Below are positions 23,627 through 31,882 of a stretch of 49,780 bases of DNA, one piece after another. Numbering within the stretch: the stretch's first letter is position 1; each line of letters begins with the position of its first letter. Position numbers and translations under genes: made by a program. This DNA is from a virus. The stretch spans positions 1 through 49,780 of IMG/VR virus record IMGVR_UViG_3300021478_000040. One strand, 5' to 3'. Under the pieces are notes generated by a model, which saw only the letters and a program-made list of their open reading frames with translations, was not told the origin of the DNA and searched no databases.

Positions 23627-25912
23627 TTAATCCTCCCACGGCATTTTGAACGCAAACGGAACTGAATGTCGGGTCGGCTGTCGCGGGTCTTCCCAGTCAT
23701 CTCCCATCAGCCAGACCGTATCAGAATTGAACTTGGCAAGGCCGCGATGCTTCAAGCTGGTCAGCGCGTCTTTGCCGTTGACGAAGCCAGCTTCAATCTC
23801 CTTGATCGCAACATCGGTCAGGATCATGTAGGTGGCTTCCGGCGGCGCGTCATTCGGCGCATATTGCGCTTTGACTTCACTAGTTGCCTTTGTTTTCTTA
23901 CAACGTTTCAGCACGTCGATAACACCCTTTATCCGTTCGCGATAAGGCAGGTTTACCGCCATGTAGAAGCCGCGTGACGGGCGCGTTACCTGATTAGTTT
24001 TGATAAGTCTACCCAGATAAGTCGCTACATTCTTTTCGCTGATGCCAGTGCGTACGGCAAGATCGCCTGCTGTCAGGGCGCATGCCGCAGCATGCAGCGC
24101 CATCAGCACATTATGAATTTTAGTGCCTTCATTCGGCATAAATAATTCTTGTGCAGTTTGCGCAGGCTTCCACATTGGTCCGCCATCTTCCTTATCCATT
24201 GTAAAATCAAATCCGGCGATATCACGCATGTAACCTTCGACATGCATCACGTCGCCTTGCTTGCCGATAATGATGCTGCCATCCGTCGCGCCAGCTATGC
24301 CGAACGAACCGCTAATGCTATCGATAGCGTCATCCACTCTACCTTTTTTGGTGTGATGTACAACCAAAATCATGACGTTGCATTCGACTGAAAGTTTTTG
24401 GATCGCGCCTATGATTTTGTAGTCCACCTGATAAGCATCGTCATTTCGATTGGAAGTGCCGCGAACGCGCTGCAACACATCGATTACTACAAATCGAATA
24501 GCTGGAAATAATCGCAGATGCTCCTTGATGTCATCCAACAGAGTACCGGTGCCATCCGAATTGACATAGAAAGGACCATCAACCGAGTAACGAAACCGGG
24601 TATTCTTGAGAAAATCAAAACCCTTCGGTCGCAATATATTAATACGTTCTTTGACGCGACGTTTGCCATCTTCCAGCATATACATCAGCACTTCACCCTG
24701 CTCGCATCGTTCGCCCCAGAATGTGCCGCCTTCCGCGATGCTTAGCGCCAATTCCAATACAATCCAACCTTTACCGACTTTTGGTTTGCCTGCGAGGATG
24801 ATGCAGCCGCTGTCGGTAAAAAACCGATTGACCAGAAATTTTAATGGCGCAATGTTCTCACGCATCAAGTCTTCGCCGGTCTGACCGGGATGTCCGCGAC
24901 CGCTTGGCAATATCAGCGGGTGCTTTGCCTTGAACACTTCAACGCTTTGCGCCAGTCCCTTCGATGCGCCAACGCCGCGCGCGAAATCGCGCTGGTCGCC
25001 ATGGCCCAGCGATCCCGGCAACATCGCGAAAGCCTGTTCGGCGACATGACCGATGTTTATTAATAATAAATTATTCACGGTCTCGAATTCCACGAACGTT
25101 GGACATACGGCGCGCGCGGCATCTACCAGCGTCGGTGCGCGACCGCTGGCCTTGATCAGCGCGCCATACCTGACACCGAGATGATGCAGCTTGGTGCCGC
25201 GACCGGAGCCGGTCGGGCTATTCTGCACGTCGGTCAACAAAACCTGCATCTCATTCTGGAATTGCGCGAGGCTTTGCGGTGTCAGCATCGCGAGATCAGC
25301 GGTGCTGAGCGGCGTAGCCTCGAAAAGCATGCTTTTTGCAGGCTGCAACGAGTAGCCAGCGGCAGCCACGCTCGCCTCCAGCGCCAGCCGCAGCGTCGTG
25401 GCGGCCACGGTCGGCGGATACTGATCGAAGATGCTCGCGCCTTCGTGCCAGTATTGCGGCGGATCACTCGGCAGCGGCGCGGTGTTGCGATAGTCACCCC
25501 AATAGACCAGTTGCTTGCCTGCACCCAGCAATTGCACCGGTCCGAATTTCTCTTGCTTGATGACGCCGGGATCGGTGAACAGCAGCGTGGCAGGACGTCT
25601 GCCCCATCTCCATTCGGTAGGATGAAAGAACGTTTGCAGGGTACCAGCAAAAAGCATGCTTTTCGCATGGTCATCAATGTCGCAATCGAGCCCGCGCGCT
25701 TCCTTCGGTCCGAGCACCGGATGAAAGATCAACCCGCATTGGATGCCGATGCCGGTGCAAGCGTCTGAGTTTGCTATCTGTAATCGCGTTTCGAGCGGCA
25801 GCAAGTTCCAGCCTTGACCGCCCAACGGAACCTTACCCGCGACCGGAACCGGCAGCAGCCCGTGCGTCGCATGCAGTTCACGCGCGAGCTTGACCAGTTC
25901 TGGATGTGTCAT
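23627..25912 (-). CDS. Primase-polymerase/helicase fusion
   Basis: This protein of about 761 residues (start MTHPELV at 25912; TTG 25930 possible) has an N-terminal Prim-Pol (AEP) domain with L-D-C-D-I-D-D (about 75-81). It also has a RecA-like AAA_25/RepA helicase domain: Walker A GKPKVGKG (375-382), Walker B F-V-V-I-D (about 470), and I-L-V-V-H-H-T-K-K. A winged-helix-like C-terminus follows. The Walker A has Gly where Ser/Thr is usual. It would prime and open the origin. Two copies of AAAAGCATGCTTTT inside the gene encode A-K-S-M-L-F in the same frame. Confidence 0.8.
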   Translation of the reverse strand: MTHPELVKLARELHATHGLLPVPVAGKVPLGGQGWNLLPLETRLQIANSDACTGIGIQCGLIFHPVLGPKEARGLDCDIDDHAKSMLFAGTLQTFFHPTEWRWGRRPATLLFTDPGVIKQEKFGPVQLLGAGKQLVYWGDYRNTAPLPSDPPQYWHEGASIFDQYPPTVAATTLRLALEASVAAAGYSLQPAKSMLFEATPLSTADLAMLTPQSLAQFQNEMQVLLTDVQNSPTGSGRGTKLHHLGVRYGALIKASGRAPTLVDAARAVCPTFVEFETVNNLLLINIGHVAEQAFAMLPGSLGHGDQRDFARGVGASKGLAQSVEVFKAKHPLILPSGRGHPGQTGEDLMRENIAPLKFLVNRFFTDSGCIILAGKPKVGKGWIVLELALSIAEGGTFWGERCEQGEVLMYMLEDGKRRVKERINILRPKGFDFLKNTRFRYSVDGPFYVNSDGTGTLLDDIKEHLRLFPAIRFVVIDVLQRVRGTSNRNDDAYQVDYKIIGAIQKLSVECNVMILVVHHTKKGRVDDAIDSISGSFGIAGATDGSIIIGKQGDVMHVEGYMRDIAGFDFTMDKEDGGPMWKPAQTAQELFMPNEGTKIHNVLMALHAAACALTAGDLAVRTGISEKNVATYLGRLIKTNQVTRPSRGFYMAVNLPYRERIKGVIDVLKRCKKTKATSEVKAQYAPNDAPPEATYMILTDVAIKEIEAGFVNGKDALTSLKHRGLAKFNSDTVWLMGDDWEDPRQPTRHSVPFAFKMPWED
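25323..25336. repeat. AAAAGCATGCTTTT palindrome, copy 1
   Basis: Perfect 14-bp palindrome within the primase-helicase gene, identical to the copies at 25650, 26185 and 26209. Confidence 0.7.
25650..25663. repeat. AAAAGCATGCTTTT palindrome, copy 2
   Basis: Perfect 14-bp palindrome within the primase-helicase gene, in the same reading phase as copy 1. Confidence 0.7.
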
Positions 25913-26137: not shown

Positions 26138-26224
26138 ATAAGCATGCTTTTTAAAGCATGCTTTTTGCGATAACGCAATCGATTAAAAGCATGCTTTTTC
26201 GCCGGACTAAAAGCATGCTTTTTC
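26138..26224. repeat. Cluster of four AAGCATGCTT palindromes
   Basis: Cores at 26140-26149, 26153-26166, 26185-26198 and 26209-26222. The last two are in 24-nt direct repeat and both continue into TTTTTCGCC. It lies upstream of the zinc-finger/primase-helicase operon. Iteron-like arrangement; see findings. Confidence 0.7.
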
Positions 26225-26280: not shown

Positions 26281-26375
26281 TGGCAAAAATGTCACTGTTG
26301 CATTTTTGTCACAGTTCCAATGCACGTCAACGTGCATTGGAACCGATTGTGGTATATCGTATACTGTATACCAGA
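26281..26375. other. Structured non-coding segment (candidate origin or leader)
   Basis: It holds AAAAATG (26285-26291) inverted as CATTTTT (26301-26307), two direct TGTCAC units (26290, 26307), and a perfect 13-bp stem with TCAA loop (GTTCCAATGCACG, 26314-26326, with its complement 26331-26343). TGGTATA...TATACCA (26350-26373) follows. Just before it (26229-26275) is a very GC-rich stretch. No gene is visible in 26125-26375. Confidence 0.5.
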
Positions 26376-26723
26376 TCAGGAGCCAAGATAGAAATACCAG
26401 CGCTGGTCATCTCCCTGATAGATTTGACCGCTTTGTTCCGCGCCTTCCCTGATCCGCGCGGCGATCTCTTGGCAGGTAATGGCTTGCAAGTCGGCATCAT
26501 CCCAAGCCGCGATTTCCTCGCGCGACCATGCGCCAAACCCGGCGAAGTATTCGCGGGCAGCATCCAATGCAGTCTCACTGGTCAAGAGAACATGTTGCCG
26601 TCCATATTCCATGGCGTTGTTCCACGTGATGCACGCGGCATCCTGACCGTGCTCCATACACGAACCTGATAGTTCAATCATGTCATCAGCATCTTCGATC
26701 ATGTGGGTAATATCTAGTTCCAT
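26376..26723 (-). CDS. Conserved phage/plasmid hypothetical protein, 115 aa
   Basis: The 115-residue acidic protein has the pattern W-N-N-A-M-E-Y, FGAWSREEIAAWDDADLQA and G-D-D-Q-R-W-Y-F-Y-L-G, which I know from small proteins of proteobacterial plasmids and phages without assigned function. It is the last gene of an accessory (-) series and is followed by the structured non-coding segment at 26281-26375. Confidence 0.7.
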   Translation of the reverse strand: MELDITHMIEDADDMIELSGSCMEHGQDAACITWNNAMEYGRQHVLLTSETALDAAREYFAGFGAWSREEIAAWDDADLQAITCQEIAARIREGAEQSGQIYQGDDQRWYFYLGS

Positions 26724-26788
26724 TTTACTGTTCTTTCGATTAGGAGCCCGGTGAGGGGCTGTCCATCTGGCCTATGGGAAGGTAGCGG

Positions 26789-26815
26789 GCCGTCCAAAAT
26801 AACGCATGGACGGCC
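26789..26815. other. Hairpin GGCCGTCC / GGACGGCC
   Basis: An 8-bp GC stem (26789-26796 with 26808-26815) encloses a loop containing AAAATAACGCAT. It lies 10 nt after (on the (-) strand) the stop of the gene at 26826 and may end that transcript, though there is no T-run. Confidence 0.4.
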
Positions 26816-26825
26816 TGCTAATGAG

Positions 26826-26996
26826 TTAGCTTGCGATTTCGTCAAGGGTCGCGGTTGACCAAACCCATAACCGTTCCTCTATGATGTAATTTGAACCGGT
26901 CTTTGCCTTGCGCGCTTCAGCGTACCTCTTGGCTTCGTTGAGGGTACGGAAGCGATCAAGCTCAATCTCGCTGCTAGACGATAGAACGTAAAACAT
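26826..26996 (-). CDS. Small hypothetical protein, 56 aa
   Basis: ATG 26996 has AAAGGA 10 nt upstream. The product has a short strand, a helix (LNEAKRYAEARKAKTG) and a W-V-W-S strand, a compact alpha/beta peptide often seen in plasmid accessory regions. It is preceded by the conserved hairpin leader (27012-27057). Function unknown. Confidence 0.6.
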   Translation of the reverse strand: MFYVLSSSSEIELDRFRTLNEAKRYAEARKAKTGSNYIIEERLWVWSTATLDEIAS

Positions 26997-27011
26997 ATCA
27001 GCATCCTTTCT

Positions 27012-27057
27012 GTTGCTAGTACGCCCTTAAGCCCGGTATCCTTGGCAGGAGCCGGGC
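27012..27057 (-). ncRNA. Duplicated hairpin leader element, copy A
   Basis: On the (-) strand the 5' leader of the 56-residue gene forms a GCCCGG...CCGGGC stem with an inner TCC/GGA pair. It is followed by the conserved tail TTAAGGGCGTACTAGCAAC. A run of 32 bases (27012-27043) is identical to copy B at 28790-28821, while the hairpin loops differ. No T-run follows the stem, so it does not look like a plain terminator. Confidence 0.5.
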
Positions 27058-27077
27058 ATAAGCGCGATGTCGAGGGC

Positions 27078-27581
27078 TTAGATTTTTCCGGCACACTCCG
27101 GACCGAAACCAAGTTCAATTGATGACGGCACGGTCAGCTTGCGACCGCAGCGCCCGCAACGCCCCTCATGCCAGATTTCAAGCTGATCGGGGAGAGTGTT
27201 GCGGGCGAGCGCGCGCCACGTCCAATTGAAAGCGCGAGCGCTAGGCGCGTCTTTGGAGATGTCGCCGGGTCGCGGTATCTTGCGGCCGAGCCAGAACACG
27301 CCGCGCGCGATCCGGCCCAGATACTGATAATCGCTTGTGTTATCCGGACCAGACAGCAAACCGACGAAATGAGCCTGACCATCTTCCGACATCGTGAGGC
27401 GATAAGTGAACCGAGCGCCGGTCTTCTTCGAAACCAGCGTGACAACCGATTTCCCGGCCAGCATGAACCGGGTTGCATCAAGCGCGGTCATCAGTCTGCC
27501 GCGCATATCATCGGTAGTATCTTGGCACTTCATTTCAGCGCTGTCGAGTTCGTGGTTCAATCCGGCAAAAAAGTCAGTCAT
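27078..27581 (-). CDS. DUF6011-like zinc-binding protein, 167 aa
   Basis: The 167-residue protein ends in C-G-R-C-G-R-K-L-T-V-P-x-S-I-E-L-G-F-G-P-E-C, the DUF6011-type zinc motif (residues about 142-164). A middle part has F-T-Y-R-L-T strands. DUF6011 occurs widely in phages and plasmids; its role is unknown. It is preceded by the palindrome GATAGCGCTATC (27608-27619) and a TTGACA element on (-). Confidence 0.75.
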   Translation of the reverse strand: MTDFFAGLNHELDSAEMKCQDTTDDMRGRLMTALDATRFMLAGKSVVTLVSKKTGARFTYRLTMSEDGQAHFVGLLSGPDNTSDYQYLGRIARGVFWLGRKIPRPGDISKDAPSARAFNWTWRALARNTLPDQLEIWHEGRCGRCGRKLTVPSSIELGFGPECAGKI

Positions 27582-27607
27582 GGCATGCGCTCCAATCGCG
27601 GAATTGC

Positions 27608-27619
27608 GATAGCGCTATC
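27608..27619. promoter_or_regulatory. GATAGCGCTATC palindrome upstream of the DUF6011-like gene
   Basis: Perfect 12-bp palindrome, identical to 28863-28874. TTGACA lies on (-) about 20 nt further upstream, so it sits in the core promoter or just downstream. Candidate operator. Confidence 0.5.
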
Positions 27620-27654
27620 TCTAGCGCTACCGCAACGTCGCTGTCAAGAGATAA

Positions 27655-27933
27655 TTATCGCTTGTATGTGACTGACCGATTAGCGTTGAGAAGGGTTGCA
27701 GTAAGCGGCGGTTCATAGTTGCAGGCAGTCAAGAACCGATCAGCATCAAACCGACCGTTAGACCGCCGACAGGCGGCGACGAATTCGTTGACGATTGATT
27801 GCCATTGCACCATTTTGTTGGCGTCCCAATGTTCGGCGGGCTTGCTGTCGCGCAAGGTGGCAGCGATCAGGCAGAAATGCCGGTGTTGCAGTTCAATATG
27901 CTTATTCGCGGTGCGGATGTCTTTCATATTCAT
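27655..27933 (-). CDS. Conserved accessory protein, 92 aa
   Basis: The 92-residue helical protein (HFCLIAATLRDSKP, then RFDADRFLTACN) is like small proteins repeated in Rhizobiales plasmids and phages. ATG overlaps the upstream TGA (ATGA), with GGAGTG just before. It is the last gene of a four-gene coupled operon that starts at 28769. Function unknown. Confidence 0.7.
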   Translation of the reverse strand: MNMKDIRTANKHIELQHRHFCLIAATLRDSKPAEHWDANKMVQWQSIVNEFVAACRRSNGRFDADRFLTACNYEPPLTATLLNANRSVTYKR

Positions 27934-28247
27934 TGTTCGTCACTCCATTCAAAGGTTTCAGTTTCGTCGTTCCATTCCATGCCTACGGGGATCAGCCATA
28001 AGTCTCCGTCCTGATAAAGCCGATACTTCACGCCGTTTTCATCAGTCACGATAGCGTTGTCACTAACTTCAATCCATACGTCCCAATAATATTCATGGTC
28101 CGGACCGGTCTCTAATATTTTCCAATCGTCAGCATTGACGCCTTCCACATGTTTGGACCGGTTCAAGAATGAGCTGGCGAAATCGCGCGGAATGTAGATG
28201 CCGCGATGGTCATCAAGCCACAGCAAAGGTTCAGGTTTGTCAGTCAT
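27930..28247 (-). CDS. Hypothetical acidic protein, 105 aa
   Basis: I start it at 28247 (MTDKPEPLLWLDDHRG), which overlaps the upstream gene by 8 nt; the longer frame to 28457 is a shadow. It is an acidic beta-rich protein with W-D-V-W-I-E-V and Y-R-L-Y-Q-D-G-D-L-W-L-I-P-V strands. Translational coupling on both sides supports it. No family name. Confidence 0.65.
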   Translation of the reverse strand: MTDKPEPLLWLDDHRGIYIPRDFASSFLNRSKHVEGVNADDWKILETGPDHEYYWDVWIEVSDNAIVTDENGVKYRLYQDGDLWLIPVGMEWNDETETFEWSDEQ

Positions 28248-28509
28248 GATAGGCACTCTCGATTTGTTCGCCGCTATGGTCGCAAACCAGACCGGCATCC
28301 TCCCAGTTGATTTCCATGGCGACGACGCGCCAGCCATTGTTGCTGCGATCATGGATCGCTTCAATGATATTGCGGCGTTCCGCCTTGGCTGACTTGAATG
28401 ACAGCGCTGCGCCGTCACTGGTAATGAAGTAGAGCGGATATCCGCCCGGCCATGCATACGGACCGTGACGCATCGCAGCGCGAAAGTCAGAGATTGTTTT
28501 GATGTTCAT
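28240..28509 (-). CDS. Conserved accessory protein, 89 aa
   Basis: Start at 28509 (MNIKTISDFRAAMRHG) overlaps the upstream TGA (ATGA). Conserved features are YAWPGGYPLYFITSDGAALSF and a C-terminal INWED-x-L-V-C-D-H-S-G-E-x-I-E-S-A-Y. This family recurs in plasmids and phages of proteobacteria. Function unknown. Confidence 0.7.
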   Translation of the reverse strand: MNIKTISDFRAAMRHGPYAWPGGYPLYFITSDGAALSFKSAKAERRNIIEAIHDRSNNGWRVVAMEINWEDAGLVCDHSGEQIESAYHD

Positions 28510-28769
28510 GTGCGCACCCTCGCATAGGACCGAATACGCGAGCGGCCTTGCGTATAGCTCTCGCGAATGATCGGCATGCCGCCGTGCTTTGCCTGATAGG
28601 CTGCGAGGAACTTGCTCGCATCGCAATCCTCTTCAAGGTAGAGCGTTTCGCCTCTATGGTAAGAAAAACGGCTGAAATCGAGCGGCGACAGATTGACGTC
28701 GGCCAGATCGGCAAACGTGACTGCAAGCCAACCATGCGCGTTGTCCGTGTAGATAGTGAATGTTTTCAT
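28506..28769 (-). CDS. Conserved accessory protein, 87 aa
   Basis: The 87-residue protein has W-L-A-V, the segment S-P-L-D-F-S-R-F-S-Y with Y-L-E-E-D-C-D-A-S-K-F, and a basic end (SRIRSYARVR). It belongs to the same kind of plasmid/phage accessory families as its neighbour. It is the first gene of the coupled operon and is preceded by the second copy of the hairpin leader and a GGAGG-type ribosome site. Confidence 0.7.
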   Translation of the reverse strand: MKTFTIYTDNAHGWLAVTFADLADVNLSPLDFSRFSYHRGETLYLEEDCDASKFLAAYQAKHGGMPIIRESYTQGRSRIRSYARVRT

Positions 28770-28789
28770 GAGTAGAAACCTCCATTCGG

Positions 28790-28833
28790 GTTGCTAGTAC
28801 GCCCTTAAGCCCGGTATCCTTTCGGAGCCGGGC
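28790..28833 (-). ncRNA. Duplicated hairpin leader element, copy B
   Basis: It has the same stem (GCCCGG / CCGGGC) and tail as copy A. The loop here is GAAA, a GNRA tetraloop, instead of the longer loop in copy A. It lies 21 nt upstream of ATG 28769. Conserved stem and tail with a changed loop suggest a functional RNA. Confidence 0.5.
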
Positions 28834-28862
28834 TTGCAAACCTCCAATGGCTGGGACGTCAG

Positions 28863-28874
28863 GATAGCGCTATC
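28863..28874. promoter_or_regulatory. GATAGCGCTATC palindrome in promoter spacer
   Basis: On (-), TCGACT, 18 nt, TATCCT surround it and place the palindrome across the spacer/-10, upstream of leader copy B. It is flanked by GGAAAGTC (28881-28888), as at 22980-23005. Confidence 0.5.
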
Positions 28875-29081
28875 GCTTTCGGAAAGTCGAGCAAAAACCC
28901 GGTTCCATGCAGTCACAAACACGTTACATGGTACCATGCATTAGATTGGCAGCGGAGCCCGTACAGGTGGGTTTCAGTTGACCGGTATACGATATCGGAT
29001 TTTCAAAAATAACGCATGGGCGGCGAATTCGTGTTTTGTTCTATAGTGTATACGTATACGAATACAACCTACAGGTTGCAG
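28875..29081. other. Non-coding region with short palindromes
   Basis: No convincing gene. It holds CATGGTACCATG (about 28927-28938), a second copy of the AAAATAACGCATGG segment (about 29007-29020) and ATAGTGTATACGTATAC (29043-29059). The content looks regulatory. Confidence 0.4.
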
Positions 29082-29120
29082 ACAAGAAAAATCCCGGTTC
29101 CAATGTATGGGACCGGGATT
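29082..29120 (-). terminator. Rho-independent terminator
   Basis: On (-) a 12-bp stem (29109-29120 with 29090-29101, one mismatch) and 7-nt loop are followed by TTTTCTTG. It ends the transcript of the gene at 29147-29398. Confidence 0.7.
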
Positions 29121-29146
29121 AGTAGTTCCAATGTATTGTGTTGGGA

Positions 29147-29398
29147 TTAATCGTCGTCGCGTTTGAAGTAATAGCTCTGACCGGACCAGATTACGGTTCC
29201 GTTATCGCGTTGACGGCGGAACTCAACGCGGATGTCGCCGGAGCAATTGGGGATGTATCCATTAGGTGGATCAATCTCGCGGTCATACTCGCGGGCAATC
29301 ATGTTCGCGAATTTGTCCATGTCCATTTTCTCGTATGGTCCCATGCGGCGCGTATACAGAACGATGTCGGTTGTGGGTTCATAGATTACGACGAACAT
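29147..29398 (-). CDS. Small hypothetical protein, 83 aa
   Basis: Start at 29398 (MFVVIYEPTTDIVLY) is fixed by TAGGAGG 8 nt upstream. The product alternates strands and one helix (KMDMDKFANMIAREYDREI) and ends in a charged tail. It stands alone between a GTATAC-containing promoter region and a good terminator, which supports a real monocistronic gene. Function unknown. Confidence 0.65.
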   Translation of the reverse strand: MFVVIYEPTTDIVLYTRRMGPYEKMDMDKFANMIAREYDREIDPPNGYIPNCSGDIRVEFRRQRDNGTVIWSGQSYYFKRDDD

Positions 29399-29799
29399 AT
29401 ACAGTCCTCCTATGGGTTGAGCGTATACATTACATGACTGCGGTGCAGCATACAATAGGTTTATATTCACACGTGGGAAGTGTGTGGGATCGCATGTTGG
29501 GAGCATGTTGGGGAATTTTTAGCTGAGTTGAAATTATTGGCTTATTTGGAATAACCCCACATTAAAAAGGCCGCTTTTAGGGTATGTATGTGGGGAATGT
29601 AGGGAGCAAAATATCGTTCCGGGTTTGTTCTTAGATTAGTTGTGCATTGCACAAATTATATTTTCCCCACATCAGTTCCCACGCACTTCCCACACTTTGT
29701 ATACACCCTTAACTCTATGACCGGTTTATGTTAATTCCTCTAGTACTACAACCCCACAAAACAGACTCTAGAATGCCCTTTTTGATGTGGGGAAGCTAA
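29399..29799. other. AT-rich non-coding region with TGTGGG repeats (candidate origin)
   Basis: No gene is visible in 400 nt. Short G-rich units of the TGTGGG(G)AA type occur about ten times on both strands (around 29472, 29483, 29496, 29506, 29555, 29590, 29665, 29676, 29687, 29752 and 29786). TTGTGCATTGCACAA (29640-29654) is an odd palindrome and TGTATACAC lies at 29699-29707. The pattern resembles iterons with AT-rich DNA between them. Confidence 0.5.
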
Positions 29800-30780: not shown

Positions 30781-30825
30781 GTTCCAATGCCCGGTGACGG
30801 TCTGACCGCTGCCGGGCATAGGAAC
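30781..30825 (+). other. Two-tier hairpin
   Basis: A 14-bp outer stem with one mismatch (30781-30794 with 30812-30825) encloses a 4-bp inner stem CGGT-CTG-ACCG (30798-30808). It lies just after the 50-residue gene, with no T-run, so it may be a structured 3' end or processed RNA. Confidence 0.5.
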
Positions 30826-30831
30826 TTCCTT

Positions 30832-30862
30832 TGGCATCTGGTATACCGTATACCAGATGCCA
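30832..30862. repeat. 31-bp perfect palindrome
   Basis: Each 15-base arm reads TGGCATCTGGTATAC around a single central C (30847). The half GTATACCAGAT recurs at 26366-26376. It could be an operator, a cruciform or a hairpin. Confidence 0.7.
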
Positions 30863-31627: not shown

Positions 31628-31882
31628 ATGACCATCGATAGCGATATCGGAAAACACTTCACCGCGCAATTGCGCCGCCTGACCCTCGACACCATCGATA
31701 CCTGCCGCCGCGCCGATCTCGATGACCACATTGTCGCGGCCATGCTGGTCACAGTGCTCGGCCATGAACTGGCGCTGACCGGCCATATCATCGGACTTGA
31801 CCAGCCGCAGTTTCTGGATTTATGCCATGATTTGTGGCTGTCGATGCAGCGGCGGCAGCGCAACCGGAAGCAGCGGCCATGA
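31628..31882 (+). CDS. Hypothetical protein, 84 aa
   Basis: Start at 31628 with AGAGG upstream. The product is helical, with a hydrophobic middle (HIVAAMLVTVLGHELALTGHII) and a basic tail (RRQRNRKQR). The first codons contain GATAGCGATATC (31637-31648). Its end overlaps the next start (ATGA). Not recognised. Confidence 0.6.
   Translation: MTIDSDIGKHFTAQLRRLTLDTIDTCRRADLDDHIVAAMLVTVLGHELALTGHIIGLDQPQFLDLCHDLWLSMQRRQRNRKQRP

Follow-up and report, generated by a model that had tools for sequence, protein, structure and literature searches.

A 32-nt repeat present twice in a viral genome belongs to a structured RNA family found in many phages, and across this family the element is anchored to the stop codon of the gene upstream of it and not to the start codon of the gene that follows. 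By comparative sequence analysis, we show the structure of the element, its covariation, its spacing, its spread over unrelated phages, and the diversity of the genes that flank it. As judged from Rfam and from open-licence PubMed Central papers, the family appears to be undescribed so far.

The repeat and its two copies in the window

The window, i.e., the whole stretch of DNA that we analyzed, is a 49,780-base virus record; it encodes a DNA polymerase A, a DnaB-like ATPase, and further tailed-phage replication genes, and the annotated homologues nearest to it are remote. A repeat search of the window yielded two segments with 100% identity over 32 nt (27012-27043 and 28790-28821), exactly where the initial annotation had reported a duplicated hairpin with 32 identical bases. 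The 25-nt core of the repeat (with up to 3 mismatches) occurs at these two places only in the window and was absent from all of 100 shuffled sequences. Both copies fold, on the minus strand, into the previously described GCCCGG/CCGGGC stem and an inner stem UCC/GGA, and their apical loops differ as had been claimed, UGCCAA being present in one copy and GAAA in the other (fold z about -3.0 each). The stem is followed in the window by UUAAGGGC, and no U-run comes directly after it, which agrees with the annotated absence of a T-run.

The element of the family is composed, in this order, of an imperfect stem of six pairs (P1), one mismatch, a second stem of six pairs (P2), an asymmetric internal loop with C on its 5' side and UA on its 3' side (C/UA), a third stem (P3), a cap, and the tail RKUAG. 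Scores in the following list refer to model R1 of the family; both window copies match it at E about 1e-11 and both were part of its training alignment.

27012-27043, strand not specified: 32-nt repeat, copy A (repeat search, family D18)
28790-28821, strand not specified: 32-nt repeat, copy B (repeat search, family D18)
27078..27581, minus strand: upstream gene of copy 1, 167 aa, phrog_20259 (E 1.4e-42), TAA at 27078-27080
27058..27077, minus strand: spacer of copy 1 from stop codon to P2, 20 nt
27014..27066, minus strand: copy 1, canonical element (R1 54.2 bits, E 1.8e-11; fold z -2.96)
within 27058-27066, minus strand: 5' strand of P1 of copy 1
27052-27057 paired with 27031-27036, minus strand: P2 of copy 1
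27051 (C) and 27037-27038 (UA), minus strand: internal loop of copy 1
enclosed by the C/UA internal loop, minus strand: P3 and apical loop of copy 1
27023-27030, minus strand: 3' strand of P1 of copy 1, then the tail
26826..26996, minus strand: downstream gene of copy 1, 56 aa, with the Shine-Dalgarno-like site AGAAAGG
28792..28842, minus strand: copy 2, atypical element (R1 52.2 bits)
28506..28769, minus strand: downstream gene of copy 2, 87 aa, a widespread phage protein

At copy 1, P2 is located 20 nt after the TAA codon at 27078-27080, the distance typical of the family, and the first paired base of the fold lies 11 nt past this stop codon. The position of the 27-kb copy relative to the TAA had escaped the initial annotation, as had the lack of a proper outer stem at the 28.8-kb copy. 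What had been described as a conserved tail, TTAAGGGCGTACTAGCAAC, proved to be only partly a tail: a portion of it (TTAAGGGC) is the 3' strand of P1, and the window version of the family motif RKUAG follows.

Copy 2 possesses intact P2, C/UA, and P3 parts, several of its six P1 pairs are broken, and no stop codon is found at the family distance. It sits in the 5' leader of gene 28506-28769, where it is preceded by a terminator-like hairpin and a palindrome and heads an operon. In three other phage loci (L010, L014, and L158), homologues of this gene follow an element that is stop-anchored at 20 nt, and the copy 2 leader diverges from relatives at the P2 boundary. The upstream gene of copy 2 and the greater part of its P1 have probably been lost.

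The small genes that follow the two copies on the minus strand are unrelated to each other, as had been noted before, and neither the 56-aa nor the 87-aa protein has a match to a PHROG family. Judged by its 512 relatives in viral contigs, the 87-aa protein is a common unnamed phage protein; most loci of these relatives are without the element. Since 77 other phage loci with homologues of gene 28506-28769 (702 kb) gave zero matches at E 0.05, the element is not tied to this gene family.

Other features were noted in the same part of the window. The palindrome GATAGCGCTATC is present at 27608-27619 and 28863-28874 (0.13 occurrences expected with one mismatch allowed), each time directly upstream of a minus-strand gene block, and a third copy with one mismatch is located at 31637; the palindrome is likely an operator. 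On the minus strand at 29078-29128, gene 29147-29506 is followed by a strong hairpin, AAUCCCGGU...ACCGGGAUU (z -4.3), and then by UUUUUC; this is a likely terminator that would separate the gene from the operon led by copy 2. Inverted repeats of the AAAAAGCATGCTTTT type at 25309-25340, 25636-25667, and 26140-26196, near the DnaB-like gene, are possibly replication-origin or regulatory repeats. A 46-nt repeat that contains GTATACxGTATACCAGAT palindromes is present at 26331-26376 and 30813-30862, with direct and inverted matches.

Distribution and covariation of the RNA family

An exact search of viral contigs with the 20-nt tail of the window returned nothing; the structural pattern alone succeeded. 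Pattern scans in which P2 was fixed, and other parts were later freed, located the element in some 60 viral contigs. In L010 and L014, the same hairpin is present in different sequence, with several copies each. Two models built from 64 (R1) and 80 (R2) sequences gave 98 unique matches in 71 loci, contig duplicates being removed by sequence identity around the element only, and 72 unique matches on full or nearly full records. The pattern searches bias this set toward GC-rich P2 stems and toward TTNRGGC after P2, and the E-values are approximate; the records are fragments of uncultured phages, and their gene starts are predictions. In whole records, a phage carries 1-6 copies, which are grouped within a few kilobases on one strand.

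Searches of annotated phages and plasmids by blastn with consensus elements did not find a true member; the matches in Pseudomonas phages (about 92-kb myophages) comprise the stem only, and some lie beneath annotated terminators. A strict pattern scan of the GTDB bacterial genomes gave a single chance-like match that resembles coding sequence, and none was seen among the best 15 candidates per genome in 385 genomes chosen class-wide around that of L141, a sample from which absence is not inferable. Rfam 15 gave no gathering matches in the window or in 12 relative loci and none up to E 10 in 26700-29200; four loci gave sub-threshold chance matches only.

In an alignment of 80 sequences (A6), 93.9% of cells are paired compared to 76.2% after shuffling and about 55% or less after sliding, and double changes are found in 13 of the 15 pairs. 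The early scans imposed P2. When P2 was left unspecified in the search, all 14 elements recovered (a list of 15 lines, two of which are one site) possess six of six P2 pairs in varied sequences that include GCGCCG/CGGCGC, GGCGAG/CUCGCC, and GCCCCG/CGGGGC. Wobble pairs in which the 5' partner is U and the 3' partner is G outnumber the reverse G-U type by 64 to 8, and this asymmetry indicates that it is the RNA of this strand that is structured. In an unbiased search, the C of the internal loop was kept in 37 of 40 elements and the UA in 31 of 40; a few variants carry a perfect stem in place of C/UA. P3 comprises at least three pairs and is closed by interchangeable caps, e.g., GAAA, GCAA (GNRA), or UUCG, and in L158 a long extra hairpin is present within P3 with C/UA retained. 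A variant without C/UA in a 94-kb phage (L151:987-1040) is enclosed by an extra outer pairing, CCUCUG/CAGAGG.

The initial annotation had proposed a structured RNA and not a terminator; the many phage relatives, their compensatory changes, and the absence of a T-run strongly support this proposal. The recent duplication without further copies that it had named as the refuting outcome is contradicted by the many further copies that covariance-model and pattern searches recovered.

Spacing to the upstream stop codon

We found that P2 starts 19-23 nt past the stop codon of an open reading frame (ORF) of at least 50 codons in 78 of the 98 matches, compared to 2.9% of random positions on the same strand. 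A looser second test, which admitted shorter ORFs and used full records, placed 56 of 72 elements at 17-25 nt (5.5% for random positions). For about 20% of the matches, the automatic count did not find a sizeable ORF that ends at the required distance; in several of these exceptions, inspection by eye revealed a stop codon about 20-23 nt away, either that of a very short ORF or one hidden by a spurious ORF. At the remaining ORF ends of these loci, hairpins do not peak at that distance. The stop codons used are TAA (36), TAG (33), and TGA (14), and the spacers are C/A-rich, G-poor, and weakly conserved, which argues that the spacing is kept and not the sequence. The distance to the next start codon varies from about 2 to more than 100 nt (often 20-40 nt), and in L153 a terminator-like sequence follows the element with no start codon nearby. 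The earlier description of the hairpin as a leader of the downstream gene therefore holds for the 28.8-kb copy only and not for the family, in which the upstream-stop spacing is fixed and the start distance is loose.

Where members fold cleanly, pairing begins 11-14 nt past the stop codon; weak pairing between spacer and tail is frequent in the energy folds, and this clean distance is seen in part of the set only. Further candidates were rejected. Recoding of the stop codon (SECIS or readthrough) does not fit the use of all three stop codons and spacings of 19-23 nt that break the frame, the core sites of an integron attC are missing, and a second hairpin with anti-Shine-Dalgarno loops (AUCCC/AUUCC) was not clearly above shuffles.

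A candidate element at gene junctions and its alternatives

The leading edge of a terminating ribosome lies about 11-13 nt beyond the stop codon. We tentatively favor a reading in which the hairpin is a phage-specific intercistronic mRNA element that acts at the terminating ribosome and marks where one gene of a polycistronic transcript gives way to the next. We infer that the hairpin touches the ribosome and protects the 3' end, and that a host factor takes part: with its base about 11-14 nt past the stop codon, the hairpin would stay folded and abut the terminating ribosome, and this roadblock position would shield the upstream message from 3'-5' decay and fix its 3' end. The same roadblock would control the hand-over to the next cistron, and a host factor (RNase, ribosome, or RNA polymerase) would read the C/UA loop and the RKUAG tail. 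Several points speak against this boundary model: a plain roadblock would need no conserved C/UA loop or UAG tail, any function of copy 2 in the window must do without an upstream gene, the automatic count leaves about 20% of the matches without a suitably placed stop codon, and the clean 11-14 nt distance is confined to part of the set. It is doubtful whether the family also represents a new class of phage RNA that has the terminating ribosome as its working partner, touches it by virtue of the spacing and, together with a host factor that reads the C/UA loop and the UAG tail, decides at each gene junction if the message is cut, protected, or re-translated.

The genes around the element are diverse. 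Their proteins group into 62 families on the upstream and 65 on the downstream side, the named ones including ArdC-type anti-restriction proteins, methyltransferases, DUF932, DUF6011, and a DNA polymerase III beta-like protein. Of 24 large phage records, at most 7 had any one protein family in common (blastp at 1e-6 with a coverage filter, which remote homology could escape), and this lack of a common phage protein favors a host factor or none. That any factor reading the element is a host factor is our guess, as the simpler option, and the remote homologues and similar plasmid hairpins lead us to guess that the hosts are alphaproteobacteria.

Several known systems resemble parts of the boundary model. 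REP sequences and the element are both extragenic GC hairpins near stop codons, and REP stems are internally irregular. Some REP hairpins lie closely after stop codons, and their distance matters for translation, which is affected only when they are less than 16 nt from the stop codon (PMC12306157). Unlike REP, the element is phage-borne, present in 1-6 copies in one orientation with tight 19-23 nt spacing, and has its own P1/P2/C-UA/P3/RKUAG anatomy; REP carries a conserved GTAG 5' of the hairpin and reaches high chromosomal copy numbers, whereas the element has no GTAG and carries RKUAG on its 3' side. The E-hairpin of the galE-galT junction is likewise a GC hairpin at a cistron junction; it fixes the 3' end there and blocks 3'-5' exonuclease so that stable upstream mRNA is formed, and GC hairpins at gal cistron ends block 3'-5' exonucleases (PMC9239205). 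It is, however, a single site with a simple stem and no conserved family, and a fixed spacing rule is absent from that paper. None of REP, the galE hairpin, and the HK022 putRNA discussed below has the anatomy of the element.

The SAS/ESAS sequences of cluster K mycobacteriophages, short repeats of unknown function, partly with inverted repeats, beside many small non-structural genes (PMC3203893), resemble the element in adjoining small phage genes; SAS lie 3-7 bp ahead of start codons, whereas the element keeps a fixed distance from the stop codon before it and its RNA pairs covary. On rhizobial conjugative plasmids, a hairpin (GCCCGGCUCCGAAAGGAGACCGGGC) that gives weak R1/R2 matches is present 23 nt after the stop codon of a ParB-like gene (in L207, gene end 11977 and hairpin 12001). 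Unlike the element, it is without the C/UA loop, P1, and the UAG tail, and the adjoining junctions bear other hairpins at other distances. Three of these plasmids (L206, L207, and L209) carry a cluster of ParB-like, DUF932, DUF6117, strawberry-notch, and toprim genes with GC hairpins at variable stop distances at the junctions.

Among the rival explanations, an RNA operator, in which a regulatory protein bound to the C/UA hairpin and tail would repress or activate translation of the next gene and the genes following multiple copies would form a regulon, is unlikely. The conserved internal loop and tail, the multiple copies in one gene cluster, and the frequent position 20-40 nt ahead of a start codon fit such an operator; it is the distance to the upstream stop codon that is fixed and that to the start codon that is loose, however, and no common phage gene offers itself as the regulator.

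We consider it quite unlikely that the element is a dispersed REP-like repeat, or a recombination joint between modules, with little regulatory role. The location near stop codons of an imperfect hairpin whose internal loop is asymmetric would suit this reading, as would the P3 that is sometimes common to the copies within one phage (L010, L014), the diverse flanking genes, and the break of the copy 2 leader from its relatives at the P2 boundary. Such a repeat would not explain the single orientation to the upstream gene or the fixed spacing despite varied spacers, and the one-strand U-G wobbles and many compensatory changes indicate selection at the RNA level.

A little less probable still is an action of the nascent hairpin on host RNA polymerase, by pausing or by resisting Rho termination at the junctions. 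The precedent is the HK022 putRNA, a phage cis-acting RNA with irregular stems that works through the host machine, RNA polymerase being acted on without phage proteins (PMC9378689). Rho is known to target junctions at which RNA is left untranslated (PMC9239205), the spacer is rich in C and poor in G, and a common phage gene is absent. But put consists of two stems near early promoters, whereas the element is one hairpin that recurs at successive gene junctions, and an action on RNA polymerase needs no fixed stop spacing. A second hairpin is not consistently present: 64 of 74 tails reach -2 kcal/mol or lower, compared to a shuffle mean of 58.6.

A riboswitch for a small molecule is very improbable: the compact conserved internal loop and the multiple copies would suit one, but the flanking genes are unrelated and many are of unknown function, no expression platform is linked to a start codon or terminator, and Rfam gave no match. 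Equally improbable is an ordinary terminator or a recent local duplication, suggested by the GC-rich hairpin after a stop codon and the two identical 32-mers but refuted as a full account by the absent T-run and by dozens of diverged relatives with compensatory changes elsewhere; a terminator scan of the window did not report the hairpin.

The RNA family is common in uncultured phages and is used between small genes, including those for anti-restriction proteins and methyltransferases, and its covariance model is usable for the annotation of phage genomes. The fixed distance to the stop codon links RNA structure to translation termination, as few known bacterial elements do, and the family thus offers a testable case of gene-junction control in long phage transcripts.
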